DNA from: Deltaproteobacteria bacterium
Lineage (GTDB): Bacteria; Myxococcota_A; Bradymonadia; REDH01
Direction of reading: 5' to 3'
Length of the DNA: 64,000 nt
Assembly (NCBI GenBank): GCA_007693585.1
Contig: REDH01000040.1
Span: 1 to 64,000 of the forward strand
Shown piece after piece: positions 8,633 through 53,203 of the stretch; the stretch's first letter is position 1; each line of letters begins with the position of its first letter. Both the position numbers and the translations under genes were made by a program. The notes under the pieces were generated by a model, which was given only the letters and a program-made list of their open reading frames with translations, was not told the origin of the DNA and ran no database searches.

Positions 8633-9028
8633 GGGCTGTGTCTCCATTGGCCCGGCATTCGCAGGGCCGTTCGGGTATCCCCCCCGAACGATCATGGGCG
8701 TAGCGTACCCGAAACCGCAGCGGTTCGCCAAGCAAGTCTCTGCCAGATAGTCGTTGCGGTCGCACCCACGTTCGGACCGCCTGCCGGCGCGCGGGGCGGG
8801 CCCTGGCCGAAAACATCGCGGCGGCGGTGTGGTGGCCACATGCCGCACACCATCCGCGGTTGCGGCCGCACCGCAATTCCACTACATCGCGTGGCCCCTC
8901 GGCGGACACGGGCCGGCACGCTCCTTTCGGCAGGCTCCGTCGCACCGACCGCGCCGGGTCTCCCCGAATGCGGCGTTCCGTCCCCCCCCCGAACGGGGCC
9001 CCTCCCTTCTCCGCTCCAGAGCCCCCCG
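8633..9028. other. Divergent intergenic region (396 bases), no gene seen
   Basis: This region separates the minus-strand MYXO-CTERM protein gene from rimO on the plus strand. I see no convincing reading frame. It holds the candidate minus-strand promoter at 8702-8731. A weak plus-strand pair, TTGCGG and TACATC 17 bases apart near 8858-8886, could serve rimO. Confidence 0.5.
8702..8731 (-). promoter_or_regulatory. Candidate promoter with palindromic operator in its spacer
   Basis: On the minus strand TTGGCG (8726-8731) and TACGCT (8702-8707) are 18 bases apart, upstream of the MYXO-CTERM protein gene. The spacer holds a perfect inverted repeat, AACCGC-A-GCGGTT (8713-8725), where a repressor or a MerR-type activator could sit. 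Both boxes are only partial matches to consensus. Confidence 0.4.
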
Positions 9029-10408
9029 ATGGACCGCATCCCCGAACGCCTCGATCTTCTGGACCTCGCCCAGCGCAGGCGGGTGCACCTGGTGAGCCTC
9101 GGCTGCCCCAAGAACCGTGTGGACTCCGAGGTGATGATCGGACTCATGCAGGGCGGGGGCTACGAGCTGACGTCGTCGCCGGAGGAGGCGGACGTGATCG
9201 TCGTCAACACGTGCGCCTTCATCGAGAGCGCCAAGGAGGAGTCCATCGAGACCATCCTGGAGATGGCGGAGTTCAAGCAGGCGGGCTCGGCGGAGCGTCT
9301 GGTGGTGACCGGGTGCATGGCGCAGCGCTATGGCGCCGAGATGGCCGAGGGTCTTCCGGAGGTCGACTACTTCCTGGGGACGAACGAGTACAAGCGCATC
9401 GCGGGCGCGCTGGACGGCACGCTCCCGGACCGGAGCTACATCACGGCCGGGTCGGCGCTCTACACGAGCGACGAGGACCGCATCAACACGCTGCGCGGCG
9501 GCTCGGCGTACCTGAAGATCGCCGAGGGGTGCAACCGCACCTGCACGTTCTGCATCATCCCGAAGATCCGGGGGAAGCAGGTGTCCCGGCCCGTCGACGA
9601 CCTCGTGCGCGAGGCGCGGACCCTGGCCGCCAGCGGCATCCGCGAGCTGCACGTCATCGCCCAGGATCTGACGAGCTACGGGGTGGACTTCGGCGAGCGC
9701 GACGCCCTCGTGAAGCTTCTGCGCCGGCTCGAGACCGTCCGCGGGCTGGAGTGGGTGCGGCTGCACTACGCCTACCCGTGGAACTTCACGGACGAGCTGC
9801 TCGAGTTGCTGCGCGCGGACAACAACGTGCTCCCGTACGTGGACATGCCGCTGCAGCACATCTCGGACCACCTTCTGCGGGCGATGCGCCGCAACGTGAA
9901 GCGCGATGCCCAGCGTCGCCTGCTCGAGCGGTTGCGGGAGATCCCGGGCATGGTGCTGCGCACGACGTTCATCACGGGCTTTCCGGGCGAGACCGAGGCG
10001 GACTTCCAGGAGCTCCACGACTGGGTCGCCGAGGTGGAGTTCGACCGGGTCGGGGTCTTCGCGTACTCGCGGGAGGAGAACACGGACGCGGCGGAGCTGC
10101 CCGATCAGGTGCCGACGGAGATCGCCGAGGAGCGGCGGGACGCGCTGATGACGCTGCAGGCGGGCATCTCGCGGCGGCGCAACGAGGCGTACATCGGCCG
10201 GCGGCTGCGGGTGCTGGTCGACGGCGTCTCCGAGGAGCACGAGTTCGTGCTCGAGGGGCGCCACGCAGGCCAGGCCCTGGACATCGACGGGGTCACGTAC
10301 CTCAACTTCGCGCACGATCTCGCCGTACCGCGCCCGGGCACGTTCGTGCAGGTCGAGATCGAGGACGCGAGCGAGTACGATCTCGTCGGAACGGTGCTCC
10401 CGGGATGA
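9029..10408 (+). CDS. rimO: Ribosomal protein uS12 methylthiotransferase RimO
   Basis: The product has 459 residues, the usual length for the family. RimO is a radical-SAM enzyme that adds a methylthio group to a conserved aspartate of ribosomal protein S12. All expected parts are visible. The N-terminal MTTase (UPF0004) domain has three cluster-binding cysteines, C26 (SLGCPKNRVDSE), C62 and C96. The radical-SAM motif CNRTCTFC (C168, C172, C175) carries the second 4Fe-4S cluster. A C-terminal TRAM domain starts near residue 385. The 'GCPKNRVDSE' motif and 'AYPWNFTDEL' favour RimO over the tRNA enzyme MiaB. The stop overlaps the next gene's start (ATGA), so the two rRNA/ribosome-modifying enzymes are probably co-translated. 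Confidence 0.96.
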   Translation: MDRIPERLDLLDLAQRRRVHLVSLGCPKNRVDSEVMIGLMQGGGYELTSSPEEADVIVVNTCAFIESAKEESIETILEMAEFKQAGSAERLVVTGCMAQRYGAEMAEGLPEVDYFLGTNEYKRIAGALDGTLPDRSYITAGSALYTSDEDRINTLRGGSAYLKIAEGCNRTCTFCIIPKIRGKQVSRPVDDLVREARTLAASGIRELHVIAQDLTSYGVDFGERDALVKLLRRLETVRGLEWVRLHYAYPWNFTDELLELLRADNNVLPYVDMPLQHISDHLLRAMRRNVKRDAQRRLLERLREIPGMVLRTTFITGFPGETEADFQELHDWVAEVEFDRVGVFAYSREENTDAAELPDQVPTEIAEERRDALMTLQAGISRRRNEAYIGRRLRVLVDGVSEEHEFVLEGRHAGQALDIDGVTYLNFAHDLAVPRPGTFVQVEIEDASEYDLVGTVLPG

Positions 10409-11805: not shown

Positions 11806-13916
11806 TCCCAGATTCCGGGATGGTCGTGTGTGATGTAGCCGAGCAGTGCTCCGCTGACGCCCACGGCCCAGGTGCCGCCGCACAGTCCGAGGATGAACAC
11901 GGGGATGAGGACGACATGTCCGAGGGTGTCTGCCAGGCCGGCGAGCAGCGAGGCCAGCGCGGCGGGGATCAGTCCGGCGACGAGGCCGAGGGCGAGCGCG
12001 ACGGCGTAGTGGACCGGGGCTCTGAAGATGGCGGTGACTCCGCGGGGGATGTCCCACAGGGCGAAGGGGTTGCCGTCGGCGGCCACGAGCGCGAGCCCTG
12101 CGGGGAAGTAGAGCAGGGGACCGAGCAGGAGGAACCCGACGAGGGCGATGTGTGGCGTGGAGCCGGTGGAGGCGGCCTGCATGCCCACGAGGATGGCGGG
12201 CGCGTAGAGGATGCCCGCGAAGACGATCATGGAGAGCCCGGGGAAGAGCAGATTCGCCTTGAAGTCGCCTGCGAAGGACGGGAGCGGGCCGGGTTCGCCG
12301 GTGTCGTGTGCGGCACCACCGAGACAGGTGCCGAAGAACTGCACGTTGATCGCGAGGAGCGCCGCGACCACGATGAGGGACACGAAGAGGCCGAGAAGGC
12401 CGGCGAACGTTCCGAACACCAGGACGACGCCGCCGCCCAGCGTGAGGAGGCCGATGACGAGGTACCATGCGAAGGCAGGTCCGCGCAGGGGGAGCAGGAA
12501 CGATTGGGCGAGGTTGGAGTGGAACCCCGTGCTGCCGGAGCCCGCACGCTGGGCGGGTGCGGTGCTTCTGGGCACAGCGCGGGCGACGGTGATGTCTGTG
12601 GGCCGCCGTGGAGCGGGGCTGAGGTCCGCGCCGGCGGCGCGGTCGGCATGGGCCCACCCGACGCTGGCGCTCGGCCCCGGTGCACGACCGAGGGCTTCGC
12701 GGCGCCTGGCTTCGTCCTGCTCGACCTGGTCGTCGCGCACGGCGTCGAGCTCGAGGCCGCTGTCCTGTGCCATCCGGCGGCGGTCGGAGGCAGCGTCGGG
12801 GGAGCGCCAGCCTGCGGCGCCCGAGTCGTCCGCGAGCTCGAGACCGGCAGAGGCACCCCGCGCGGTTTCCGGGCGCGGGCGTGATCGGGTGGCGGACCCG
12901 CGGTGGAGCTCTTCGCGCGATCCGGCCATGGCGTTGGCCAGCCCATCCTGCGGGATGTGGCTCGCCATCCAGCGAGGCCCTTCGTAGCGGTCCTCGAGTT
13001 CGAGCGCTCCGCTGGCAGGCTCCGGAGACGGCGGTGCCGCCCCCGGGGGGGGTGGAGCGAGCTGGCCGGGCCGGATGGCCTGGGTGACGAGGCTGGGCCC
13101 GACACCGGTGAGCCAGTCGGCTTGCGGTGCCTTCTGGACACCCTCCGGCAGCGGGCGGGCCGAGGACGGTGGAGCGGAGGCGGGAGTCCGTGCGGACGAT
13201 TCCTCCTCACCGAGGGGTGCTCCGAAGAGGTCGGAGGATCCACCGGCGTACTGACTGGGGAGGCTGTGCTCGTCGACATCCGGCGGAGCGTACCACTCGT
13301 CGAGGTCCACGGCGGGGGCGGGCAGCGGTGTGACCTGTTCGGGGCGACGGGATCCGATGGCGTCGATGCCGCCACGCGGGGTGGGGTTGCGCGCGCTGGC
13401 GACGCTCTCAAGGCCCCCCTGGGGGGTGGCGCCACCCACGGTGGGCGAGGTGCCCGGGCGGGGGGTGTGCTGGCGGGAGCGGGACGGCGCGATCGCCTGC
13501 AGACCGGAGCGGGGGGTGTTGCCTCCCGCGGCCCGGCTGGTGGGCATCGGGGAGCCCCCGGAGGGGGTGAAGGCGCCCGGCCGGGTCAGGGGCTGAGGGA
13601 TGGGGATGGGGCCCGTGGACAGTCGGGGACGGGACGGAGCGGGGGTCACGGGGAAGGAGCCCGTCGGGCTGGCGGGGATGCGGGGCGGCGCCTCGGCGAA
13701 GAAGTCGTCCGCCGGGGCCGCGTCCCGGAGCTCGACGCGGGCGCCGTGGGCCTCGAGAATGGCGGCGACGGCCCGGACCCGGGCGCCGGGTTCGCCGGCG
13801 AGCACCGTGGTTCCTTCGACGAGCTGTTCGGCGTCGATTCCTTGACGCTGCAGGGCGTTGCGCAGCTCGACGGTGACACCGGGTGCTCGCAGGAGCACGA
13901 GATCGAGGTTCGCCAT
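11802..13916 (-). CDS. Membrane protein: small N-terminal alpha/beta domain, disordered linker, multi-helix C-terminus
   Basis: The product has 704 residues. The first 60 (MANLDLVLLRAPG...) look like a compact alpha/beta domain reminiscent of the ribosomal L7/L12 C-terminal or ClpS-like fold (LVLLRAPGVTVELRNALQ); this is inference. Residues about 75-460 are rich in Pro, Ser, Gly and Arg and look disordered, with recurring 'TPRGG' and 'TPRSG' patches. The last 220 residues carry six or seven hydrophobic helices and resemble DUF4013-type membrane domains. There is no signal peptide, so the N-terminal part is probably cytoplasmic. Similar layouts occur in myxobacterial proteins of unknown function. 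The gene follows the large repeat lipoprotein, with a strong hairpin between them. Confidence 0.85.
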   Translation of the reverse strand: MANLDLVLLRAPGVTVELRNALQRQGIDAEQLVEGTTVLAGEPGARVRAVAAILEAHGARVELRDAAPADDFFAEAPPRIPASPTGSFPVTPAPSRPRLSTGPIPIPQPLTRPGAFTPSGGSPMPTSRAAGGNTPRSGLQAIAPSRSRQHTPRPGTSPTVGGATPQGGLESVASARNPTPRGGIDAIGSRRPEQVTPLPAPAVDLDEWYAPPDVDEHSLPSQYAGGSSDLFGAPLGEEESSARTPASAPPSSARPLPEGVQKAPQADWLTGVGPSLVTQAIRPGQLAPPPPGAAPPSPEPASGALELEDRYEGPRWMASHIPQDGLANAMAGSREELHRGSATRSRPRPETARGASAGLELADDSGAAGWRSPDAASDRRRMAQDSGLELDAVRDDQVEQDEARRREALGRAPGPSASVGWAHADRAAGADLSPAPRRPTDITVARAVPRSTAPAQRAGSGSTGFHSNLAQSFLLPLRGPAFAWYLVIGLLTLGGGVVLVFGTFAGLLGLFVSLIVVAALLAINVQFFGTCLGGAAHDTGEPGPLPSFAGDFKANLLFPGLSMIVFAGILYAPAILVGMQAASTGSTPHIALVGFLLLGPLLYFPAGLALVAADGNPFALWDIPRGVTAIFRAPVHYAVALALGLVAGLIPAALASLLAGLADTLGHVVLIPVFILGLCGGTWAVGVSGALLGYITHDHPGIWD

Positions 13917-13994
13917 CTTCCGGCCGGTCGCGGGGGGCGGAGGAACTCTTCGGTCGACAGGGTGTGTGCGTCGGTGTCCCGGGTCAAGAACGGC

Positions 13995-14025
13995 GAACCC
14001 CGGGGGCAGCGGGCTCCCGGGGTTC
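13995..14025 (-). terminator. Hairpin terminator after the large repeat lipoprotein gene
   Basis: GAACCCCGGG (13995-14004) pairs perfectly with CCCGGGGTTC (14016-14025) across an 11-base loop. It begins 29 bases past the stop of the 14054-17731 gene. On the minus strand only a weak T-run (GTTCTTG) follows, so termination may be imperfect. Confidence 0.6.
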
Positions 14026-14053
14026 ACGAGACGAGCTGAGGCGCGGGAGGGGC

Positions 14054-17000
14054 CTAGTCCCGGACGGGCAGGGGTCCGACGATGGACTGGACAGTGACGT
14101 CGCGGGTGTTGGCGCTGATGCCCTGGGTCCCTGCGGAGGTCGTGGGGCACCAGGATGCGCCTCGGGCGCCGGCGTTGCCGCCGGAGCCGATGGTGTAGTT
14201 GACCCCGGCCACGCGGACCGTGGCGCTGCCGCTGCCCCAGATGCCTACGGAGGGGCCGCCGCCACCGCCGCCGCTGCATCCGCCGCGGCCGCCACCGCCC
14301 CCGACACCACCGCGGCCGCCGATGCCGCCGACCTCGGATCCGACCCCGGAGCCGGTGCCGTTGCCGCCGTTGCCGCCGGCTCCGCCGTTGCCGCCGTCAC
14401 CGCCGGCTCCACCCCGGCCGCCGGTGCCGCCACCTTCCGTCTCGATCTCCGCGTTGATGAGCGTCACGGTGGACTGGTGCACGAGCACACCGATGGAGGC
14501 GCCACCGGAAGTACCCACCGTTCCGCGGGTCCCCCCGCCACCCCCGCCACCGCCGCCGCCACCACCGCCACCGTATCCGGTGCGGGTGCCGCACGAGTGG
14601 CCACCGCCGCCACCGCCGCCGCCGCCGCCGCCGCCGAGGCTGCCGTTGGTGCCGAGACTGGCGGTGGCCGGCGACCAGGCCGCTCCGCTCAGCGCTCCAA
14701 CGCCGTTGGCACCGTTGCCGTGACTGCCTGCGGAGCCAGCGCAGCCGGTCTGTCCGTTGCCGCCGGCCTCCGCGGCTCGCCGGACGCTGCACAACCAGTT
14801 CGAGTCGTTGCGGCGCCCTCCCGAGCCACCGCGGCCGCAGGAGCTCGTGGAGTTGGCTCCGTTGGCTCCGTCGGCGCCGCGGTTGCCGCCACGGCCACCA
14901 TTGCCGCCGCGACCGCCGTTGCCGCCTGCGGCGCCGCCCGTGGAGCCGGCGTTGCCGCTGCTGCCCGCGGATCCTGTGGCCCCGGTGTTGCCGCTGCTCC
15001 CGTCGCTGCCGGCATTGCCGTTGCCGCCGCGGCCGACGGTGATGTTGCTGTTTCGGATGGTGAGGTGGGTGCCGGAGTTCGAGACCACGATGCCGTACGC
15101 GGCCGCACCGGCGCTCGTCTGTCCGCGGGTCTCGAAGCTGACGCGGTCGAGGATGACCGAGCCGTCGAGGTCGATGGCGCGCAGCGCGGCGTTGGTGGTG
15201 CTGAGGAAGTTGGCCCGGGCGTTCGACCGGGACGTGAAGCTGTCGCTGTATCCGCCGAAGACGCTCACGCCGGCGACGGGCGCGAGGGCCGGTCCGGTGT
15301 AGCTCCCGGAGGCGACGAGAACCTGGTCGCGGCCGAGGGCTGCGGCGCGGTTGATGCCCTGCGCGATGCTGCGGCATGGGGAGGCGAGGGTACCGCAGCT
15401 GTCTCCGTCGGCGCTGTTGCGTTCGCGCACGAACACGGCCCGTTCGATGTCACCTCCGGGGATGCCGTCGCAGTTGGCGTCGAGGTTCAGGTCGTCGCCG
15501 GGCACTTCGGTGGCGCTGCAGGCGCTGAAGGTGATGCTGTCGCCCCAGATGTGTTCGCCGCCGGCGATCAGGAAGGCGCGCGCGTGGTAGCTCGCGTCCG
15601 GGGTCAGGCCGGCGAGGTCGTGCTGGAAGTTTCCGGTGCCGGGCGCTTCACCGAAGGCATGGCAGGTCGCGCTCTGGTCGGGGTTCGGGGTGGAGCCCCA
15701 GCAGAACCCGTAGTCGCTGGGTGCGGGGTTGCCGATGGCGACGACGGATCCACGCAGGCGAACGCTGGTGGGCTGGCGCTCGGCCACCTCCAGGGTCTGA
15801 ACCACGGAGTCCTGCAGCATCCGGAACTGCCGCGACTGTCCCCAGACGAAGTCGCTGCCCACCTGGGCGAAAGCCCGATACACATAGGTCGCCCCGGCGT
15901 CGAGGCCGGTGCGCTCGATGGAGAACGGTCCCACCGCGATGCCACCGGGCGCATCCACGCAGTCGACCCCGGGGCCGCCGGGCGCGGGGTCGGGCTCGGT
16001 GCCGATGCAGAAGCCGCGGCGCGAGGCCTCCGGGCGGCCCACCTCGGTCATCGTACCGTTGAGGGTGGCCGTCGTGTCGGAGTTCACCACCGGGAGGTCG
16101 GTCACGACCCGGGGCCGCAGTGGGGTCTCGAAGTCGCGCTCGTTGCCGTAGATGAGGCCGGAGGCGTGCTGCACCCACGCGCGGACGTAGTACGTCTCTC
16201 CACCGACAATCGGCCCTACGGAACGCTGGAATCCACCGTCCGTACTCGGTGCGCCGAGGCTCACGCATGTCGTGTCCTCCCGCCCGACGCTGGGCTCCTC
16301 CTCGAGCGAGAAACAGAAGCCGTGGTCGGTGGCTGCGGGCACGCCGAGGCGGTCGATGATGCCCCCCAGCAACGCGCTGGTCTCCTCGATGTCCGAGACC
16401 GCGGACGTGCGGACGATCGGCAGGAGGTAGGTCTGCACCTGGCGGACTTCGCCATGCACGATGCCTGCGGCGTTCCGCGCAAAGGCGCGATACCGGTAGA
16501 GGGTGCCGGCCTGAAGGCTCTCGAAGGTGCCCGTGTAGGCGCCCGCTTCCACGCGGCTTCCCCGCTGGGTGCACTGGACGCCGAAGTCTCCGAACTCGAA
16601 GCTCTCGAGGGTGGCCAGGCAGATCCCGTGCTCGTCCACGCCGGGCACGCCCACCTCGGTCACTTCACCGCCCAGGCGAAGGCTGTCGGCGCCGATGGCG
16701 TCGGGATCACCGGTCTCCACGGCAGGCAGAACCGCCTCGACGCACGCGCCGCCGACGAGCACGTCCCCCTCCCGACACCGGCAGTTGCCCTCGTCACAGA
16801 TCCCGTCGGTGGGACACTCGATCCCGCAACCGCCGCAGTTGCGAACGTCCCGATCCAGGTCGAAGCCCTCGTCCACCACGCCCGAGCAGTTCGTGTCCCG
16901 CCCGTCGCAGACCTCCGGCACCCCGGGGTTCACGTTCGGATCCCCGTCGTCGCAATCGAAATCGATGCACCCCGGACCGACGCCGTAGCCGTCTCCGTCC

Positions 17001-17971: not shown

Positions 17972-18043
17972 GGGCGATTAACTCAGCGGGAGAGTGCCAC
18001 CTTCACACGGTGGAAGTCACTGGTTCGAATCCAGTATCGCCCA
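17972..18043 (+). tRNA. tRNA-Val (anticodon CAC)
   Basis: All four arms fold. The acceptor GGGCGAT (17972-17978) pairs with ATCGCCC (18036-18042). The D stem is ACTC/GAGT. The anticodon stem CCACC/GGTGG holds the loop TTCACAC with CAC at 18004-18006. The T arm is ACTGG-TTCGAAT-CCAGT. The discriminator base is A and the 3' CCA is not encoded. It reads the GUG codon, which suits this GC3-rich genome. A possible upstream promoter (TTGCGC at 17902, TGTGCTAGA near 17920) is too irregular to call. Confidence 0.95.
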
Positions 18044-43579: not shown

Positions 43580-45013
43580 CTAGCCCACGCTGTGTTCCAG
43601 CTTCATCTCCAGCAGGTTCACCGCTTCCTCGGCGAACTCCATCGGAAGGTGGCGAAACACCTCCTCACAGAATCCGTTCACGATCATCGAGATGACCTGC
43701 TCCTCGTCCAGGCCGCGGGACTGCAGGTAGAAGACCTGGTCGTCGCTGATCTTCGACGTGGAGGCCTCATGTTCGATGGTCGCCGAAGCGTTGGCGCACT
43801 CGATGTAGGGGAAGGTGTGGGCTCCGCACCGGTCGCCGACCAGCATGGAATCGCACTGGGAGAAGTTGCGCGCATTCTCCGCTCCCTTCTCGATGCGGAC
43901 CAGGCCGCGATAGCTGTTCTGGGACTCACCGGCGCTGATGCCCTTGCTGATGATCGTGCTCCGCGTGTTCTTGCCGCGGTGAATCATCTTCGTGCCCGTG
44001 TCCGCCTGCATCCGGTCCTGCGTGAGCGCCACGGAGTAGAACTCGCCCTGGCTGCCGTCGCCCTCCAGGATGACGCTCGGGTACTTCCAGGTGATCGCCG
44101 ACCCCGCCTCGACCTGCGTCCAGGAGATCTTGCTGTTCCGCCCGATGCAGCGACCCCGCTTCGTCACGAAATTGTAGATGCCCCCCCGACCCTCGGCGTC
44201 TCCCGCATACCAGTTCTGGACCGTCGAGTAGTTGATCACGGCATCATCCAGGGCGATCAGCTCGACGACCGCCGCATGGAGCTGGTTCTCGTCCCGCTGC
44301 GGCGCCGTGCAGCCCTCCAGGTAATTCACCGCCGAGCCCTCCTCGGCCACGATCAGGGTCCGCTCGAACTGGCCGGTCCCCGCCGTGTTGATCCGGAAGT
44401 ACGTCGACAGATCCATCGGACACTTCACCCCCTTGGGGATGAAGCAGAACGAGCCGTCCGAGAACACCGCGCTGTTCAGCGCCGCATAGAAGTTGTCCGT
44501 CGTCGGCACCACCGTTCCCAGGTACCGCCGGACAAGCTCGGGGTGTTCCTGCACGGCCTCCGAGAACGAACCGAAGATGACCCCGACCTCCGCCAGCTTG
44601 TCCTTGAACGTCGTCGTGACCGACACCGAGTCGAAGACCGCATCCACGGCCACGTTCATCAGGCGCTTCTGCTCCGTGAGGGGAATGCCCAGGCGCTCGA
44701 ATGTTTCCAGAAGCTCGGGATCCACCTCGTTCAGGTTGTCCAGCTTCGGCTTCTTCTTCGGTGCCGACCAGTAGCTGATCGCCTGGAAGTCCACCGGCGG
44801 ATAGCTCGCGTTGAGCCAGTGCGGCTCCGTCATTCGCTTCCACCGCTCGAAGGCCTCGAGCCGGAAATCCAGCAGCCACTCCGGCTCCTCCTTCCGGCGG
44901 GAGATCTCCCTCACCACGGACTCGTCCAGTCCGGGCGGCAGCGAGTCCGTCTCGATCGAGGTGACGAACCCGTACTTGTAATCGCTCTGAAGGCGTGTCT
45001 CGAGCGCATCCAT
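43580..45013 (-). CDS. sufB: Fe-S cluster assembly protein SufB
   Basis: The product has 477 residues. ATG 45013 has GGAAGGA upstream. SufB is the scaffold on which the cluster forms. Family landmarks are [13 protein letters not shown] at the N-terminus, [26 protein letters not shown] (conserved Cys), [12 protein letters not shown] and the C-terminal [20 protein letters not shown]. It is first in the operon sufB-sufC-sufD-nfu. No cysteine desulfurase (SufS), SufE/SufU or regulator gene is in the window, so sulfur supply must come from elsewhere. Confidence 0.97.
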
Positions 45014-45107
45014 GGCAGTTCCTTCCTGTGTTTGCCCGACCCCGACGCCGGAGTCCCCAACCTGCGTTCCACGCCAGCCATCCCGCGACACGGCTAGGCG
45101 AATGAAC

Positions 45108-45204: not shown

Positions 45205-45642
45205 TCAGACCCGCACGCGACGACCCAGCGCCGACCAGAACAGCGCGCCGCCCACCATCGACCAGGCGAGCACGAAGCCGTTCCAGAGATACAGTCCCGA
45301 ATACTCGTTCAGGGCCCAGCGAAGCACGCAGGGCGAACCGACGAAGCCGAGCAGCTCGAGCACCCCCCCTCCCGGGGCGGCCAGCGTCACCGCAGCATTC
45401 AGCGTGTACAGCGCGGCGCCCGCACACAGAAAGAGTGCCCAGCGGCGAAGGATGGCCGCGGCTGACGTCATCATCGACAGCCCCGTGATCCCGATGACGT
45501 AAGCGCCATACGGATCGAACAGCGAGAGCGGCCCCGTCGACAGCAGCATGAGCAGCTGGACGAGGCCGATGGCCGTCCCGACGAACACGAGCCCGACAGG
45601 AATCCGGAGATCGCGAGGGACAACGGTCTCGGGAGAGGACAT
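45205..45642 (-). CDS. Small integral membrane protein, unknown function
   Basis: The product has 145 residues from ATG 45642; upstream in-frame starts (45690, 45759) would add a polar tail. Four hydrophobic helices are evident (starting at LVFVGTAIGLVQLLMLLS, ITGLSMMTSAAAIL, FLCAGAALYTLNAAV and LVLAWSMVGGALFWSAL), ending with Arg residues that suggest a cytoplasmic C-terminus. It is DoxX/DUF-like in size, but I recognise no family. It is transcribed in the direction of sufB and ends 191 bases before it, with the suf promoter in between. Confidence 0.65.
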   Translation of the reverse strand: MSSPETVVPRDLRIPVGLVFVGTAIGLVQLLMLLSTGPLSLFDPYGAYVIGITGLSMMTSAAAILRRWALFLCAGAALYTLNAAVTLAAPGGGVLELLGFVGSPCVLRWALNEYSGLYLWNGFVLAWSMVGGALFWSALGRRVRV

Positions 45643-45740: not shown

Positions 45741-46610
45741 TCAGTCCCCCGACCCGCACACCCCGGCGAGGAGTTCCGCAAGCCGGCGGCCGGCGATCGT
45801 CACCGCTTCAGGGCTCAGATCCCCGCCCAGCGCCACCCGGCCTGTCTCGCGGGCGGCGACGAGGCTCGTCCCCGATCCGCAGCAGGGATCAACCACCAGC
45901 CCACCCTGCGGAGCATGGGCCCTCACCAGTAGACGAAGCAGCGCGAGCGGCTTCTGGGTGGGATACCCTGTTCGCTCCCGGGCCATGTTGTTGATGGCCG
46001 GAATGTCCAGGACATCCGGGTGCTTCTTCATCATCCCCTTCATCCTTGCGCTCGTGGCAGGCACCATGGGGGGGTCGAAGTACCAGGACGTGCCTCGGGT
46101 GTACCACAGGATCGTGTCGTGCTTGCGCGGCCACGCACGGCGGCTCGAGCCCCCCAGCCCGTAGCGCCAAACGAGCTCGTTCCGGAAGCCGGGCCGCCGA
46201 GAGGAGCCTCCGCCGCGTTCCCCGGCTCCCAGGTGCCGGTCCGCAAGCACGGCCAGATAGGGCGACGCGTGCTGATCACAGTGCAGAAGCAGACTTCCCT
46301 CGGGAGCAAGGGTGGACGCGATCTCCTCCAGCAGGCGGTCCATCCAGTCGAGATAGCCGTCCAGCCCTGCGGGCCAGCGGTCGACGAACGCCGGAGCAGG
46401 TCGGTCCGCGGAGGTCCTGCGGCCCGTGAGAATACGCTGGATGCCGAACGGAGGATCCACCACGATCAGGTCCGGCAGCACGTCGTCGCGCCGAAGTTCT
46501 CGCAACAGCTCCAGCGCATCCATCTGCCGCACGGGCTGACGTGCCCACCCTTCGGGAAGGTCACGTGGCCAGCGCTCCTCTCGGCCGGTGCCCTCCCCGT
46601 CGACGCTCAC
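45741..46610 (-). CDS. DNA methyltransferase, beta-class (N6-adenine or N4-cytosine)
   Basis: The product has 289 residues from GTG 46610, overlapping the previous stop (GTGA). Motif IV is DPPFG (52-56) near the N-terminus, and motif I is DPCCGSGTS (241-249) near the C-terminus with YPTQKP before it. This order defines the beta class (CcrM/HinfI-like), which methylates adenine N6 or cytosine N4. The region between, about residues 125-200, would be the target recognition domain. No restriction endonuclease is adjacent, so it is an orphan methyltransferase, but it is coupled to a SWIM protein and a SNF2 helicase. The recognition site cannot be deduced. Confidence 0.88.
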   Translation of the reverse strand: MSVDGEGTGREERWPRDLPEGWARQPVRQMDALELLRELRRDDVLPDLIVVDPPFGIQRILTGRRTSADRPAPAFVDRWPAGLDGYLDWMDRLLEEIASTLAPEGSLLLHCDQHASPYLAVLADRHLGAGERGGGSSRRPGFRNELVWRYGLGGSSRRAWPRKHDTILWYTRGTSWYFDPPMVPATSARMKGMMKKHPDVLDIPAINNMARERTGYPTQKPLALLRLLVRAHAPQGGLVVDPCCGSGTSLVAARETGRVALGGDLSPEAVTIAGRRLAELLAGVCGSGD

Positions 46611-48715
46611 GCGTCCTCCACGACCAGCCCCGCAGCCAGAATCGGTGAGTCGTCCTGGTAGGCCTTCATGGCGAGCCCCGTCCGTCCTGTCGCGGACGTG
46701 TGGGACCGGTGCAGAAACAGCGACAGACGTCGATGATCATCGGCCAGTTGAAGTCCCTCGGCCACGGCTGTCGCGAGCGCGGCAAGGTGCTCCGCATCGT
46801 CCCGATCCGCCCTCGGGGACGCCGCCTCGAGCAGACCCAGCACGGCGTTGCACGCGGCATCCGTCAGGGCGTCGCGATCCTCCTCCGCCAGGCTCGATGA
46901 ACCCACACGATCGAGGGCATCCCCGAGCGTCTCCACCCCCCGACCCCGCGCCCTCCGGAGTTCCGCGGGGACGGTGTCGAGCGACTGAAGCAGAACGGCG
47001 AGCGCACTCCCCGCAGGACCGTCGCGACCGGCGAGCAGGAGGCGGAGCGCAGCCCGTGTCATCAGGTCGGCGGCCTCGCATCCGGGATCGAGCCCCTTGT
47101 CCACGCGTTCGTTCATCGCTTCCACCGCCACCGAAGCCGACCCGGCCAGAACGAGCAGCACAAGCTGCGCACCGGTCAGCTGCAACGGCCGAACTCCCGC
47201 GAGACGTTCGAGGGACGCGCGCTCGTCGTCCAGGCCTTCCGGCTCGCAGTTGAGCAACAGAAGAAGGCGCGCCAGGTCGGCAGCGCCACGCCACGCCTGC
47301 CTCGCTGCAGCGAGTGCTTCCCCCGCCGCGCCGCGCTGGAGTGCCTCGAGTGCCTCGTCCGTGGACGCCTCCACCGTCGCCCCGGCCACCGCCCGCTCCT
47401 CGTGCCCGGTGACCACGCGGACGGGCGCGGACCGACGCGCTTCCTGCTGCGCCTTGCCCTTGCGACGCCTCCGGGCTCCCCCCTCGGACGAACCGCGACG
47501 AATGAGGACGCTGGGCTCGGCGCTCTGGGGCGGCGGATCGTCAGAAGCCGCGCGAGCTGGAGGACGTGCGGGACGCGGAAGTGCGTCGCCGAGCATGGAG
47601 CTCAGCATGTCCCGTCCCCCTGCCGAGCTGCTGCCCGGCGGCGTGGGCTGCGACCGTCGGCCGGACCGCTCTGCGGCAGGCTCGTCAGGCATCCCGATCC
47701 CGTCATCGGGGAGGGGGCCGGACCGCGCAAGAGACACGAACCCGTCATCCGCTCCGTGGCCGACCACCACCGGGTCGAAGTCCCCTGACTCTCCTCCCTC
47801 CTCGACATCCTCCTCCCCGTAGTCGTCGTCCTCCTCCTCTCCATAGTCGTCGTCCCCGAACTCCTCGGACGTGTCGTTCTCGTCCTCTTCATCCAGCTCC
47901 CGGACCCCTTCCAGTGCCAACCGGAGCGCCAGCCGCGCCACCTCCTCGTAGACCGGCCCGAACAGATCGCGGGTCCCGATGGGGAGCTCCCACGGCCGCG
48001 GCTCCTGCAGGCGCTGGAGCACCAGAAGCGGGTTATCCGATGCCTGCACCCGGAAGTTGAGTCCGAGTGCAGCGGACGGCGCTCGATTGAACCGATCCGC
48101 CAACAGGGGAATCACCCGGACTCCCCGGGTCGCATCGGCTTCCTGCTGGCGACGCTCCGCCCGATGGTGCCCGCCTTCCCGACCGAACCAGACGCGCTGG
48201 AATCCCCGGAGGAGCGTGTCGCGATCCGCGCCGCGGAGCTGGAACAGGAGAAAGGGATCCCGATCCAGCGCCTCCCCGAAGGCGAAGTGGACCGCGGCAA
48301 TGTGCTTGCACGGGCGGGCCTTGTCCGGACAGTTGCACTGGCCGATCAGCTCGCTGTTGCGAACGGGAAAGAGAGCGAGACCCTCCTCCCTGAACAGGTC
48401 CTCGATGTCCGACGGCATCTCCCCGTTCAGGAGCTGCGCCGGGAAACGCGCCTCCTGCGCAAGGCGTCGAATCAGCCGATCCCAGTCGGCATCGCGATTC
48501 GCCGGCACGTCGATGCTGGAGCTGTACGGCTTCGACCGGGAACCCTGAACCTTCGCGGTGATCCGGCCAGCAGTCACCGTGAGCGTCAGGACGTGACCCT
48601 TGGCGGCGTAATCCCGCCCACGGGGCAGCCGATTCTGCCAGGCCGTGCTCAGGCGCTGCAGATCCTGGATCCAGCGCCCGCCCCACCCCGCGGCTCCCGT
48701 CCGTTCCTGGCTCAT
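46607..48715 (-). CDS. SWIM zinc-finger protein, partner of SNF2 helicase
   Basis: The product has 702 residues. ATG 48715 overlaps the helicase stop (ATGA). The SWIM zinc finger is CNCPDKARPCKHIAAVHF (residues about 127-144; CxC...CxH). In bacteria SWIM proteins are typically encoded beside SNF2-family ATPases and are thought to bind DNA or protein with them. A markedly acidic stretch (about 275-325; Asp/Glu runs with GDDDYGEEEDD), a Pro/Ser/Arg-rich linker and a basic KGKAQQEARR patch follow. The C-terminal 230 residues are helical and Leu/Ala-rich, perhaps repeats. It has no membrane segments and is cytoplasmic. The downstream methyltransferase is also coupled to it. Confidence 0.88.
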   Translation of the reverse strand: MSQERTGAAGWGGRWIQDLQRLSTAWQNRLPRGRDYAAKGHVLTLTVTAGRITAKVQGSRSKPYSSSIDVPANRDADWDRLIRRLAQEARFPAQLLNGEMPSDIEDLFREEGLALFPVRNSELIGQCNCPDKARPCKHIAAVHFAFGEALDRDPFLLFQLRGADRDTLLRGFQRVWFGREGGHHRAERRQQEADATRGVRVIPLLADRFNRAPSAALGLNFRVQASDNPLLVLQRLQEPRPWELPIGTRDLFGPVYEEVARLALRLALEGVRELDEEDENDTSEEFGDDDYGEEEDDDYGEEDVEEGGESGDFDPVVVGHGADDGFVSLARSGPLPDDGIGMPDEPAAERSGRRSQPTPPGSSSAGGRDMLSSMLGDALPRPARPPARAASDDPPPQSAEPSVLIRRGSSEGGARRRRKGKAQQEARRSAPVRVVTGHEERAVAGATVEASTDEALEALQRGAAGEALAAARQAWRGAADLARLLLLLNCEPEGLDDERASLERLAGVRPLQLTGAQLVLLVLAGSASVAVEAMNERVDKGLDPGCEAADLMTRAALRLLLAGRDGPAGSALAVLLQSLDTVPAELRRARGRGVETLGDALDRVGSSSLAEEDRDALTDAACNAVLGLLEAASPRADRDDAEHLAALATAVAEGLQLADDHRRLSLFLHRSHTSATGRTGLAMKAYQDDSPILAAGLVVEDA

Positions 48716-51700
48716 GCGAGCTCCTCCTCGTCATCGACCTCGGTGGCCCGTCCCAGCGAGAACAGATCCCGCAGGGCATCATCGTCCAGCTCGGTCAACC
48801 AGGCCTCCCCATCCCCCACGACGCTGTCGGCCAGATCACGCTTGGACTCTAGAATCTCGTCGATCTTCTCCTCCACAGTCCCGGCCACAATGAACTTGTG
48901 GACCTGCACGTGTCGCGTCTGACCCACACGGAATGCACGATCCGTCGCCTGATCCTCCACGGCCGGATTCCACCACCGATCGAAGTGGAAGACATGCGTC
49001 GCACGCGTGAGGTTCAGGCCCGTCCCCCCGGCCTTGAGCGAGAGCAGCAGTGCCGGCGCCGCGTCGTCGTCCTCCTGGAAGGACCGCACGATCTCGTCCC
49101 GACCGTGAGCAGAGACCCCCCCGTGAATGAACGGCAGCTCCACCCCGAGCGTACGCCGGAAGTGCGTGTGGAGAAGGTCTCCCATCTCCTTGTATTGCGT
49201 AAAGATAAGCGCACGATCGCCCTCCGCGACCACCTCCTCCATCATCTCGGCCAGGCGAGTCAGCTTGCCCGACCGCTGGGCGAGCCGATCCGGGGCCTCC
49301 TTCAGATAGTGCGATGGATGGTTGCAGATCTGCTTGAGCGCCGTGAGAAGGGCGAGAATGTTCGCCTTGCGCTTCATCCCGCTGGCATGGCTGATCCGGT
49401 CGAGCGTATCGTCCACCGCCGCCTGATAGAGGGTGGCCTGCTCCCGGGTGAGCGTGCAGTAGATCTTCTGCTCCTGCTTCTCCGGCAGATCCTGGATCAC
49501 CGTCGGATCGGTCTTCACACGGCGCAGAATGAACGCGCCGGCAAGCCGGCGAAGTCGCTCGGCCGCACCCTGATCGCCGAACCGCTCGATCGGAACCGCA
49601 AAACGCCTGCGGAAGTCTCCCAGGCTTCCCAGAAACCCGGGGTTCGCAAACTCCAGGATGGACCAGAGCTCCGTCAGGCGGTTCTCCACCGGGGTTCCGG
49701 TCAGGGCGAACCGCCGCTCCGCGGGAAGCGACCGGATCGCCCGCGCCTGCTGCGACGCCGGATTCTTGATGTTCTGGGCCTCGTCGATGATCAGGTGGGA
49801 CCACGACTGCTTGCCCAGAAGATCGGCGTCCAGCCGGGCAATCACATACGTGGTCAGGACGATCGTCGGGCGACCCCGGCGCTGCGAGAGGCTCCGCAAC
49901 GACGCGGCACGGGACCGCCCGTGGTGTCGCACCACCCGAAGCGCGGGAGCAAACCGCCGAAGCTCCCGTTCCCAGTTGCCCAGAACCGATGTCGGGCACA
50001 CCAGGAGGGCCGGCGTGCTTCCCCAGCAGTCACGCTCGGCGTTCGCCAGCAGCAGCGCGATCACCTGAATGGTCTTTCCCAGACCCATGTCATCCGCGAG
50101 ACACACCCCGAAGCCCAGGTCCGTCAGGTTCGACAACCACGTCAGCCCTCGCTCCTGATACGGCCGCAGCTCCCCCTCGAAGCCCTCCGGTGTGGGCACG
50201 GGATCAATGTTCTCCGCGTCGCGGAGCCGATCGACCAGCGACGCAATCTCGCCGTCGGCCACCACCTCGATCTCGCCAAAGCGACCGTCTCCCTCGAACG
50301 AGCCCGAAAGGGCCGCAGCGATCGCCACGCCGCGCTCCATCGTCCCCGTCGTCGACGAGTCCCCGAAGACCCGCTCCATCTCCGCCAGCTCCCGAGGGTC
50401 CACGGCAAGCCACTGCCCCCGCCACTGCACCAGCGGCTGCTTCATCGCGGCGACCTCCCGGAACTCCTCCGGGCTCAGGTCGTGTCCGCCGAGGGCAACC
50501 TGCCACCGGAACGACGCCAGCGAGCCCATCCCCATGCGAGGCCCTTCCCCACCCGAGCCGGAAGCGCCCTCCAGCTCACCTCCCACGCGAAGCTTGAGAC
50601 GAAGACGCTGCCGTCCATCCGAACGCAGCTCGCGCGGCACCCGAACGCCGACTCCGAACTGCTGCAGAATGGGCCCGACATCCGAGATGAACGCCCACGC
50701 CTCCTCCGTGGAGAGAAGGACACCGCCGGGACGTGCCGTCTGCAGCGAGCGGGCCACGGGTCCGAAGAGCCTGCCCGTCTCCGCCAGAGACGCCAGGAGC
50801 GTCTCGTGCGGGTGCAGGAAGGAGTGCACGCCGACCTCGATGCAGGCGTCGTCGCTCGACCACACGGAAGCGGCATCCACCAGCACCCCGGGGTCGTCGT
50901 TCGCCTGAAGGAGATAGCGGAGGTACCACGCCCCGGGCGACTCCGCCGTCTCCGGCGAGGAGTCCGGCAACTCCAGCTGATACGTCACTGCGTAGGCGGA
51001 TCCCGCCATGGCCTTCGGACGCACCGGAGATGCCCAGCGCGCCACCTCGTCCGGAAGCCGGCGCTCCACCAGTCCCGCCGACTCGAACACCGGATCGGCC
51101 GCCGTCAGCGCATAGCGCCAGCGCAGCTCCCAGGCCGCCAGTTCACGGTTGTCCTTGCGGGGCTTGTCGCGGGCCGTCGAAGGCGACGCCTCCCGGCACA
51201 TCGCATCGGCCACCGAGTCCAGAAACGCCCGAACCAGCATGCCCGGTTCCCAGATCGTCGTCCGCTCGGTGACCGGCTTGCGGCGACGCCGACGGCGGTT
51301 CTTGCGACGGCGGCCTCGACGGTCCCCTTCCGCTCCTTCCTCCTGCACCAGGCAGTGTCCCGCAATCGGCATCGCCTCCTCGATCCGTCGCAACCGCTCC
51401 CGGGTATCCGCCGAGAGATTCGTGCTCGCCCAGCGCGCCAGCACCTGCTCTCGTGGCCCGCGCTCCAGCAGGGGCACGATCTGGCCCGACGCGATCAGCT
51501 CCACGGCCAGCTTCGCCGCAAGAGCCCACGCCCGGACCGAGTCGGACACCCGCCCCGCCGCGCCTTCCGACAGGTCCAGCCGCACCAGCCCTCGAACGGT
51601 CTCCACCAGCGGAAGCCGGATCGCATTGAGCTCGGCGATCTCCCAGTCCTCGTGCTTGTTTCGGGTCGGCGTGGGAATCACCAGCTCGACCTTGCCCGTC

Positions 51701-51864
51701 GGGGGACTCTTCCCTCGCCTCAGCACACCGAGGGAGGCCAGCGCCTTGCGGGCGTAGTCCACCCTGCGCGGCGGCATGCACCAGAAGTACAGTCTGCCCT
51801 GACCCGGAAGATCCGAACGAGGCACGAAGGTCGCTTGCAGTGATCGAAAGTCAGTGGCGGACAT
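48712..51864 (-). CDS. SNF2-family DNA helicase/translocase
   Basis: The product has 1,050 residues from ATG 51864; no strong ribosome site, so the start is uncertain. The N-terminal 550 residues match the SNF2-associated region that bacterial SNF2 proteins carry (DUF3670-like). The ATPase core has ADDMGLGKTIQV (Walker A), DEAQNIKN (motif II), LTGTPVENRLTELWSI (III) and ILRRVKTDP. Lobe 2 has LIFTQYKEMGDLL, LSLKAGGTGLNLTRA and DRAFRVGQ (motif VI). It probably translocates on double-stranded DNA and remodels bound proteins, with the SWIM partner. First of three overlapping genes. The gene order SNF2-SWIM-methyltransferase is the point of interest. Confidence 0.93.
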   Translation of the reverse strand: MSATDFRSLQATFVPRSDLPGQGRLYFWCMPPRRVDYARKALASLGVLRRGKSPPTGKVELVIPTPTRNKHEDWEIAELNAIRLPLVETVRGLVRLDLSEGAAGRVSDSVRAWALAAKLAVELIASGQIVPLLERGPREQVLARWASTNLSADTRERLRRIEEAMPIAGHCLVQEEGAEGDRRGRRRKNRRRRRRKPVTERTTIWEPGMLVRAFLDSVADAMCREASPSTARDKPRKDNRELAAWELRWRYALTAADPVFESAGLVERRLPDEVARWASPVRPKAMAGSAYAVTYQLELPDSSPETAESPGAWYLRYLLQANDDPGVLVDAASVWSSDDACIEVGVHSFLHPHETLLASLAETGRLFGPVARSLQTARPGGVLLSTEEAWAFISDVGPILQQFGVGVRVPRELRSDGRQRLRLKLRVGGELEGASGSGGEGPRMGMGSLASFRWQVALGGHDLSPEEFREVAAMKQPLVQWRGQWLAVDPRELAEMERVFGDSSTTGTMERGVAIAAALSGSFEGDGRFGEIEVVADGEIASLVDRLRDAENIDPVPTPEGFEGELRPYQERGLTWLSNLTDLGFGVCLADDMGLGKTIQVIALLLANAERDCWGSTPALLVCPTSVLGNWERELRRFAPALRVVRHHGRSRAASLRSLSQRRGRPTIVLTTYVIARLDADLLGKQSWSHLIIDEAQNIKNPASQQARAIRSLPAERRFALTGTPVENRLTELWSILEFANPGFLGSLGDFRRRFAVPIERFGDQGAAERLRRLAGAFILRRVKTDPTVIQDLPEKQEQKIYCTLTREQATLYQAAVDDTLDRISHASGMKRKANILALLTALKQICNHPSHYLKEAPDRLAQRSGKLTRLAEMMEEVVAEGDRALIFTQYKEMGDLLHTHFRRTLGVELPFIHGGVSAHGRDEIVRSFQEDDDAAPALLLSLKAGGTGLNLTRATHVFHFDRWWNPAVEDQATDRAFRVGQTRHVQVHKFIVAGTVEEKIDEILESKRDLADSVVGDGEAWLTELDDDALRDLFSLGRATEVDDEEELA

Positions 51865-52375
51865 GCACGGTCTGGAGCGGAGGATTCCCTCGCCGCACCC
51901 ACCGAACCGCACCCCGCGCACGAAGGCGAACCCGGTGGGCGGCAATGCGGGTCACGGCGGCAACGGCAGGCCGATGGCCCGGAGCACCGTTCGACGGTGC
52001 CCTGGAGTGGCAAGCTCTCGGAAAAGCCGTCTCTCGATGGCTGGCTCGGGCAGGATGCGACCACTGGGGCCGAACGAAGGACGAGGGCGACGCCGATCGC
52101 TCTCGACGCACACTCACGAACGAAGGTCAACGCGGACTGCGAAGCCCCGGATGGGGCCGCACGATGAACCGGAACCGCCCCCCCTTCCCCGAACCGCTGT
52201 CGCGCACCGGGGACGGGGAGTTGCGCTCACCGATGCGGGGTTAAGCCGAGCCGCAAACCGGTGTCAAGGGCCATGTCGGCAACCGCACCACGCGCGCCGC
52301 AGCCGCCGCCTCGCGTCCTCCGCCTCGCATCCCCTGCCCCACCCCGCCTCCGCGACCACGGCCGCGATCTCGAAC
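51865..52375. other. Intergenic region (511 bases) upstream of the SNF2 operon
   Basis: I see no convincing gene; the reading frames here lack signals and typical composition. It contains a minus-strand promoter candidate (52239-52267) and a perfect 7-bp hairpin GCACCGT-TCG-ACGGTGC (51984-52000). If the promoter is right, the SNF2 mRNA has an unusually long leader of about 370 bases. Confidence 0.5.
52239..52267 (-). promoter_or_regulatory. Candidate promoter of the SNF2-SWIM-methyltransferase operon
   Basis: On the minus strand a perfect -35 TTGACA (52262-52267) is followed after 17 bases by a weak TTAACC (52239-52244). The -10 match is poor, so activation by a regulator may be needed. Confidence 0.4.
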
Positions 52376-53203
52376 TCAGCCGTCCCGTCCCACCGGGCTG
52401 TCCGAGAAGATGTCGAGGTTGGGCAGCATCACGATCTCGATGCGCCGGTTGAGTCGACGCGTTTCCGCCTCCTCGTTGGAGGCCCGGGGCTGAAACTCCC
52501 CGTAGCCGGCTGCGGAGATGTTCTCCGGCGCCACCCCGGCATCGATCATCAGCCGGACCACCGCGAGTGCACGCGCGGAGGACAGCTCCCAGTTGCTGGG
52601 AAACTGGCGGGTGCTGATCGGTACGTTGTCCGTGTGACCCTCGATCTGGAACTGGCGGTCGGCGAAGGTTGCCAGTACCTCACCGACCTCCCGCAGGGTC
52701 TCGCTCCCCTCGTCTCCGAGGGTCGCCGAACCGGAACCGAACAGAATGTCCTGCGGAAGCTCGATCACGACCCGGCCCCGCGAAATGTTCACGCTCAGCT
52801 GGCCCGCCTCGATCTGACTCTGGAACGCCTCGATGAACTCGCGGTAGATGCGGTTGCGCTCCTGTTCCTCGCGCTGAATGATGCTCAGCTCCTCGAGCCG
52901 GGCCAGCAGCAGCTCCCGCTCCTCGCTGCGCTCGTCGTACAGCGCGAGCGTCTGCTCGAGACGCTCCCGAAGATCGTCCCGCTCCCGGGCAGTCATCGAC
53001 TGCAGATCCGTGCACTCCACAAGCTCCTGCCGCACTGCGTCACGCTGCCGCTCCACGTCCTCCAGCACCGACGCCTGGGCCTCGTACGCGGACTGGAGCT
53101 GCGCGAGATCATCCAGAGCATCGTTGTACTTGCCCTTGCCGACGCAGCCGGAGAGCAGGGCGAAACCCACGAGGAACACGGTCGGAACGGCGACAGACTT
53201 CAT
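52376..53203 (-). CDS. OmpA-family peptidoglycan-binding lipoprotein with coiled coil
   Basis: The product has 275 residues. ATG 53203 follows AAGGAG by 7 bases. A lipoprotein signal ends LLSGC (Cys20). Residues about 25-130 form a long coiled coil (SAYEAQASVLEDVERQ... and ERLEQTLALYDERSEER). The C-terminal 120 residues are the OmpA/MotB peptidoglycan-binding domain, seen in DILFGSGSATL, FQIEGHTDNVPIS, SSARALAVVRLM, GYGEFQP and NRRIEIVM. It probably links the outer membrane to the cell wall. It lies 106 bases after the acyl-CoA ligase gene on the same strand. Confidence 0.92.
   Translation of the reverse strand: MKSVAVPTVFLVGFALLSGCVGKGKYNDALDDLAQLQSAYEAQASVLEDVERQRDAVRQELVECTDLQSMTARERDDLRERLEQTLALYDERSEERELLLARLEELSIIQREEQERNRIYREFIEAFQSQIEAGQLSVNISRGRVVIELPQDILFGSGSATLGDEGSETLREVGEVLATFADRQFQIEGHTDNVPISTRQFPSNWELSSARALAVVRLMIDAGVAPENISAAGYGEFQPRASNEEAETRRLNRRIEIVMLPNLDIFSDSPVGRDG

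Follow-up and report, generated by a model that had tools for sequence, protein, structure and literature searches.

Does a run of overlapping genes for an SNF2 ATPase, a SWIM zinc-finger protein and a DNA methyltransferase encode one machine, or do proteins with separate tasks share an operon? The question is raised by the window analysed here, a stretch of 64,000 nucleotides (contig REDH01000040.1) belonging to a Myxococcota draft genome of 4.97 Mb in 223 contigs, whose relatives in the named collection go under the labels Myxococcales or Deltaproteobacteria. On its minus strand, the SNF2 ATPase (51864-48712), the SWIM protein (48715-46607) and a beta-class DNA methyltransferase (46610-45741) follow one another, and an earlier note on this DNA had suggested that the set could tie DNA methylation to nucleoprotein remodelling, repair or phage defence. 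Our results argue, with good though not full confidence, for separate modules in one operon, namely an SNF2-SWIM pair and, next to it, an apparently orphan methyltransferase passed down vertically and probably of N6-adenine type, the two being probably co-expressed in two genera but unlikely to form one machine. Since relatives often keep the two parts separate, the triad seems to reflect how genes happen to be placed locally and not a new system, and illustrates that a striking operon can be mere local arrangement.

Gene overlaps and linkage in related genomes

The first gene (48712..51864, minus strand) runs from an ATG at 51864 to a stop at 48712 and encodes an SNF2/Rad54-family ATPase with a DUF3670 domain (SCO1167-like, SsoRad54-like); the second (46607..48715, minus strand) encodes a SWIM zinc-finger protein of 702 amino acids (Pfam SWIM), and the third (45741..46610, minus strand), from a GTG at 46610 to a stop at 45741, a solitary beta-class methyltransferase with a DPPF motif IV (Pfam N6_N4_Mtase). 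Both junctions, read directly on the minus strand, are four-base overlaps, ATGA for the SNF2 stop and SWIM start (GCATGAGC, 48712..48715) and GTGA for the SWIM stop and methyltransferase start (GCGTGAGC, 46607..46610), just as the earlier note had described them. Such overlaps are an ordinary mark of operon organisation, and the three genes are probably co-transcribed.

The order to which the window genome belongs is represented in our collection by six genomes: the window genome, four members of the genus g2 (G001-G004) and one member of another genus (G005). Both the methyltransferase and the SNF2 gene were found in 6/6 of them, while the triad stands together in the window genome and G005 only. 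The arrangement therefore exists beyond one genome, since G005, from a different genus, carries it in the same order and on the same strand, the SWIM stop being directly followed by the methyltransferase frame and the SNF2 gene being split over two contigs. In all four g2 genomes, the SNF2-SWIM pair lies on a contig other than that of the methyltransferase, which is followed by sufB, with sufC, sufD and a NifU-like gene next where the contig continues (G002, G004). The gene before the methyltransferase is rpmB (ribosomal protein L28) in three of the four (G004, G003 and G001; loci L090, L091 and L092), and the contig of G002 starts inside the methyltransferase, so that its upstream neighbour lies outside the sequence. 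G004, the only g2 genome with a contig continuing past the SWIM gene, has other genes there, including biotin carboxylase. The linkage is thus broken in three of the five relatives within the order, and the fourth, G002, is cut by its contig start, which does not bear out a conserved unit. Note that the window genome shares one methyltransferase neighbour with G005 (the SWIM side) and the other with g2 (the suf side, with one open reading frame between), sufB adjoining the methyltransferase region in both the window genome and the g2 genomes (synteny in L072, L076, L077 and L088).

To look for the triad more widely, we searched 57 class genomes and 235 phylum genomes, the latter sampled evenly from a larger set, together with 160 methyltransferase loci, comprising the best 80 of 217 confirmed named loci and the best 80 of 518 confirmed viral loci, many of them with short flanks; in all these sets it was absent outside the window genome and G005. 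Indeed, SNF2-SWIM stands by the methyltransferase in a single one of the best 160 loci, and this locus (L093) is G005's own record. From the side of the motor, a family-profile search, which very distant methyltransferases could escape, recognised a related methyltransferase near 0/25 SNF2-SWIM pairs outside the order, or 0/26 counting G004. At least 1 kb of sequence follows the SWIM gene in 24 of these 25 pairs (25 of 26 with G004), L256 being counted with just 341 bases, and L253 was left out because its contig ends before the SWIM gene. The wider relatives therefore do not support the linkage either, and the literature, judged by titles and abstracts, yielded no recognisable description of an SNF2-SWIM-methyltransferase triad.

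The neighbours of the methyltransferase in other groups are of another kind: an AsmA/DUF748-like gene lies upstream of it in 7/7 Planctomycetota loci (L095, L096, L097, L100, L107, L109 and L110), and 5/5 other Myxococcota loci have beside it a PMT_2 gene and a partner gene, both encoded on the opposite strand. Such a pattern is that of a solitary enzyme that is mostly inherited vertically and changes neighbours from lineage to lineage. Searches at E<=1e-15 matched none of 50,697 phage records and three of 72,556 plasmid records, none of these matches covering 80%.

The methyltransferase tree, built on 49 rows chosen from 164 collected, groups the six members of the order in one clade (99/94), in which the window genome stands with g2 (98/84) and G005 outside. 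From alignment A2, L112 and L122 were removed, as they have stops in their match spans, and L098, L110, L127, L130, L134, L138, L187 and L188 were dropped when the list was shortened. The SWIM tree agrees weakly with it (81/90). Within g2, the ratio of non-synonymous to synonymous substitution rates (dN/dS) lay at 0.083-0.148 in six pairs of the methyltransferase, at 0.025-0.037 in six pairs of SNF2 and at 0.082-0.114 in three pairs of the SWIM gene, of which only a part was covered, while between-genus values were not used because dS was near-saturated. All three genes are constrained in g2 although they are unlinked there. With its unlinked genes, g2 offers a natural test of whether motor and methylase depend on each other.

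The SNF2-SWIM pair and the solitary methyltransferase

The SNF2 protein contains the Pfam domains SNF2-rel_dom (1.1e-71), DUF3670 (4.6e-33) and Helicase_C (4.3e-20), and its best solved structure is the snf2/rad54-family helicase 1z63 (E 4.3e-141), which we take to be SsoRad54, a name used in PMC5512222. It shares with SsoRad54/SCO1167-like pairs the DUF3670 SNF2 core followed by a SWIM gene, the latter joined here by a four-base overlap. However, it scores 827.7 bits against the 1200-bit cut-off of the NCBIfam model helic_SCO1167 (NF058637, the SCO1167/SCO6262 equivalog), and by that measure is a relative and not a member. The locus also differs from those of other SWIM-associated SNF2 ATPases by its third gene after SWIM and by the 702-residue SWIM protein with its long C-terminal part, which is acidic or variable. 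The SWIM motif itself, near residues 125-142, matches just above the Pfam cut-off (20.1 versus 19.6 bits, and 24.4 bits in a six-frame search). At E<=1e-100, SNF2 is matched in 140 of the 235 phylum genomes, in many of them over the ATPase core only, and a SWIM open reading frame adjoins SNF2 in 24 of 26 high-ranking loci outside the order (L045-L070), the other two (L050 and L052) lying at contig ends. SNF2 with SWIM is therefore a real and widespread bacterial pair, a point on which the earlier note was right.

DUF3670 matches were also obtained in the controls Bacillus subtilis, Synechococcus elongatus, Corynebacterium glutamicum and Methanosarcina acetivorans. In B. subtilis, the SNF2 enzyme YwqA presumably has YwqB as its SWIM partner. 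Two reports describe that YwqA interacts with RNA polymerase and that its loss worsens the lethality of PcrA depletion, with viability ~8-fold lower (PMC10804225, PMC7385302). YwqA may serve as a lead to the function of the window SNF2 protein, the basis being the DUF3670 protein in B. subtilis rather than an alignment to YwqA.

The methyltransferase (Pfam N6_N4_Mtase, 2.1e-28) is the sole match of its kind in the window genome at E<=0.001. Its assignment to the beta class is supported, as motif IV (DPPF, residues 52-55) precedes motif I (GSGT, residues 245-248) and the fold matches beta-class enzymes. The predicted fold (mean predicted local distance difference test score 86.7) is nearest to the N6-adenine methyltransferase M.BceJIV (template modelling score 0.70 by query length, 27% identity), which is also close in size, and then to CcrM, MboIIA and RsrI. 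With DPPF as its motif IV, the enzyme is likelier of the N6-adenine type. Over 26 aligned sequences, DPP, W148, Y150, G153-G154, KHD and P.QKP are invariant. Like the solitary N6-adenine methyltransferases M.BceJIV, YhdJ and CcrM, the window enzyme has no linked endonuclease that could be recognised, but it differs from them by a conserved core of its own (YGLGGSS..RKHDT and KK..D..IP..NNM). It is not an orthologue of YhdJ or CcrM, as it falls below both curated cut-offs (59 bits versus 292 for PRK11524, which we take to be YhdJ, and 37.9 versus 830 for the CcrM model). No restriction enzyme, the absence of which the earlier note had remarked on, was recognised among the adjacent genes scanned in the window genome, g2 and G005, no search having been aimed at a distant, unlinked one, and the enzyme looks orphan. 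Note that the G005 methyltransferase (L073:3971-5092) is longer at its C-terminus, by roughly 90-100 residues, and that its motif I is altered (DYFSGSGT).

The methyltransferase is of note in itself, being solitary, present in every genome of the order searched and found beside different but constant neighbours in Planctomycetota and in Myxococcota outside the order; its retention suggests that these uncultured groups carry an epigenetic mark not yet studied. In the Lake Biwa methylome study (PMC6329791), Chloroflexi are reported to have methyltransferases that lack a restriction partner, and none of them could be tied by us to the window methyltransferase.

Separate modules weighed against one machine

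With separate modules, the first would be a Rad54-like translocase of double-stranded DNA with a zinc-binding partner, which would most likely spend ATP on shifting or stripping DNA-bound proteins, such as stalled RNA polymerase. The second would be a solitary beta-class methyltransferase, probably acting on N6-adenine and passed on vertically, that marks a short motif genome-wide in an epigenetic or housekeeping role. Both modules probably came together in an ancestor common to the order, from which the triad of the window genome and G005 would derive, and a later parting in g2 would have left the methyltransferase by sufB; co-translation in the window genome and G005 would set a shared expression, and a common biochemical job would not be required. 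As to the direction of rearrangement, one joining followed by the parting in g2 takes the same number of steps as two separate joinings, and we prefer the former because the triads of the window genome and G005 agree in gene order, strand and tight spacing.

Several results weigh against this reading. The SNF2 tree branches differently, though weakly, with G005 beside g2 (80/80). The gapless triad occurs, in the same order and on the same strand, in two genera that are not exclusive sisters on the methyltransferase tree, and must thus have been kept for some time or have arisen twice. Strict vertical descent is called into question by the distribution of the methyltransferase in the class, where it was found at E<=1e-20 in eight of 57 genomes, six of them from this order; the order may thus have gained the enzyme from elsewhere. 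Finally, the fold also matches the cytosine-N4 enzyme 8s9m, and the activity may instead be on N4-cytosine.

The tight gene coupling in two genera could also reflect a lineage-specific functional unit, in which the SNF2-SWIM motor would clear proteins for methyltransferase access or read methylation to direct remodelling. We regard such a unit as unlikely, since the g2 orthologues are under purifying selection though unlinked, and since sister methyltransferases and the outside SNF2-SWIM pairs are unlinked as well. DISARM and the DarB-like methylase-helicase dyads found on mobile elements likewise place an SNF2-type motor beside a methyltransferase; however, the source on such dyads (PMC5512222) describes another methylase class, mostly EcoKI/TaqI-like gamma-class enzymes, unlike the beta-class family of the window, whose setting is chromosomal and housekeeping, with no partner genes recognised. 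It appears quite improbable that SNF2-SWIM and an orphan adenine methyltransferase were a co-translated unit in the family ancestor, coupling genome-wide methylation to protein removal from DNA, with the g2 proteins interacting in trans and with the methyltransferase being part of an orphan subfamily, uncharacterised and vertically kept, whose recognition core is common to its members in Myxococcota, Planctomycetota and viral contigs. The lack of a recognised endonuclease beside the methyltransferase in the window genome, g2 and G005 might in turn suggest a decayed restriction-modification remnant, that is, a methyltransferase that outlived its lost endonuclease and is now drifting, but this is very improbable given the dN/dS values within g2 and the active-site and target-recognition residues conserved across the order; sister clades, too, are without a recognised endonuclease in the few neighbours scanned.

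We give hardly any credence to an anti-phage defence system, whether DISARM-, Zorya-, Dpd- or BREX-like or new, and the defence link proposed in the earlier note was not upheld. The PADLOC models of ZorD, DpdE and DrmD do match the SNF2 ATPase core, and the upstream OmpA gene matches ZorB models; these matches nevertheless fall on the shared helicase core and on the OmpA domain, respectively, and the NCBIfam scores stay far from their cut-offs (ZorD 303 versus 1500, DrmD 82 versus 950 and 76 versus 610, DpdE 45 versus 500). Zorya was rejected on its ZorD score, on a ZorB likeness through the OmpA domain only and on the lack of ZorA among the neighbours scanned, where the next gene encodes an AMP-binding enzyme; DISARM was rejected on its DrmD scores and on the lack of DrmA, DrmB and DrmC among the neighbours scanned. 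Judged by the curated cut-offs and by the partners missing among the neighbours scanned, the unit does not match any known defence system. In addition, the SWIM protein has no PADLOC match, the genes around the unit are housekeeping genes (gyrB, mnmE, an R3H protein gene, yidC, rnpA, a NifU-like protein gene and sufB), no sign of a mobile element or defence island was seen among the nearby genes scanned, and presence in 6/6 genomes of the order is not typical of defence genes.

Flanking features and related loci

Upstream of the SNF2 ATG, a gap of 511 bases (51865..52375, minus strand) extends to the stop of the OmpA-domain gene at 52376, beyond which lies the gene of the AMP-binding enzyme. 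The earlier note had read a long leader and a weak -10 here. The gap is real, but the start of SNF2 is uncertain, as its reading frame is open back to 51951, and a sigma-70 scan of 51700-52500 returned no promoter-like and no terminator-like site. The sole Rfam match of the window is a tRNA at 17972, with none in the leader. On the other side, an open reading frame with no assigned function (45205..45642, minus strand, start inferred at the ATG at 45642) lies between the methyltransferase and sufB (43580..45091, minus strand; Pfam SUFBD_core, 9.2e-79), the start of the SUF iron-sulphur cluster. It has no Pfam or PADLOC match, gave none by tblastn against the 80 named loci of the methyltransferase, and is probably not part of the unit.

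Two loci were not counted as triads, since they place another SNF2 type beside a methyltransferase of the wide family. In L078 (G122:C29:1-19000, positions 7390-10298 and 13069-15284), a relative of the methyltransferase is co-directional with a shorter SNF2 protein (609 amino acids, DpdE/ZorD-like core), and a second, type III-like methyltransferase gene lies nearby; perhaps this is a restriction or defence locus in its own right. L139 (6201-18765), from a Thermoanaerobaculia metagenome-assembled genome, contains a row that looks like a defence island: a gene for a protein in which an SNF2-like motor is combined with a methyltransferase-like N-terminal part, then genes for a beta-class methyltransferase and a DruE-like protein of 1894 amino acids, along with a transposase-like open reading frame (labelled from its translation). 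Elsewhere, a second N6_N4_Mtase-type gene directly follows the methyltransferase in L099 (10732-11490), and a relative lies ~9 kb away in L101 (19691-20482). The Myxococcota genome G079 (L079) has six matches to the methyltransferase family at E<=1e-20, compared with one in most genomes that have it.

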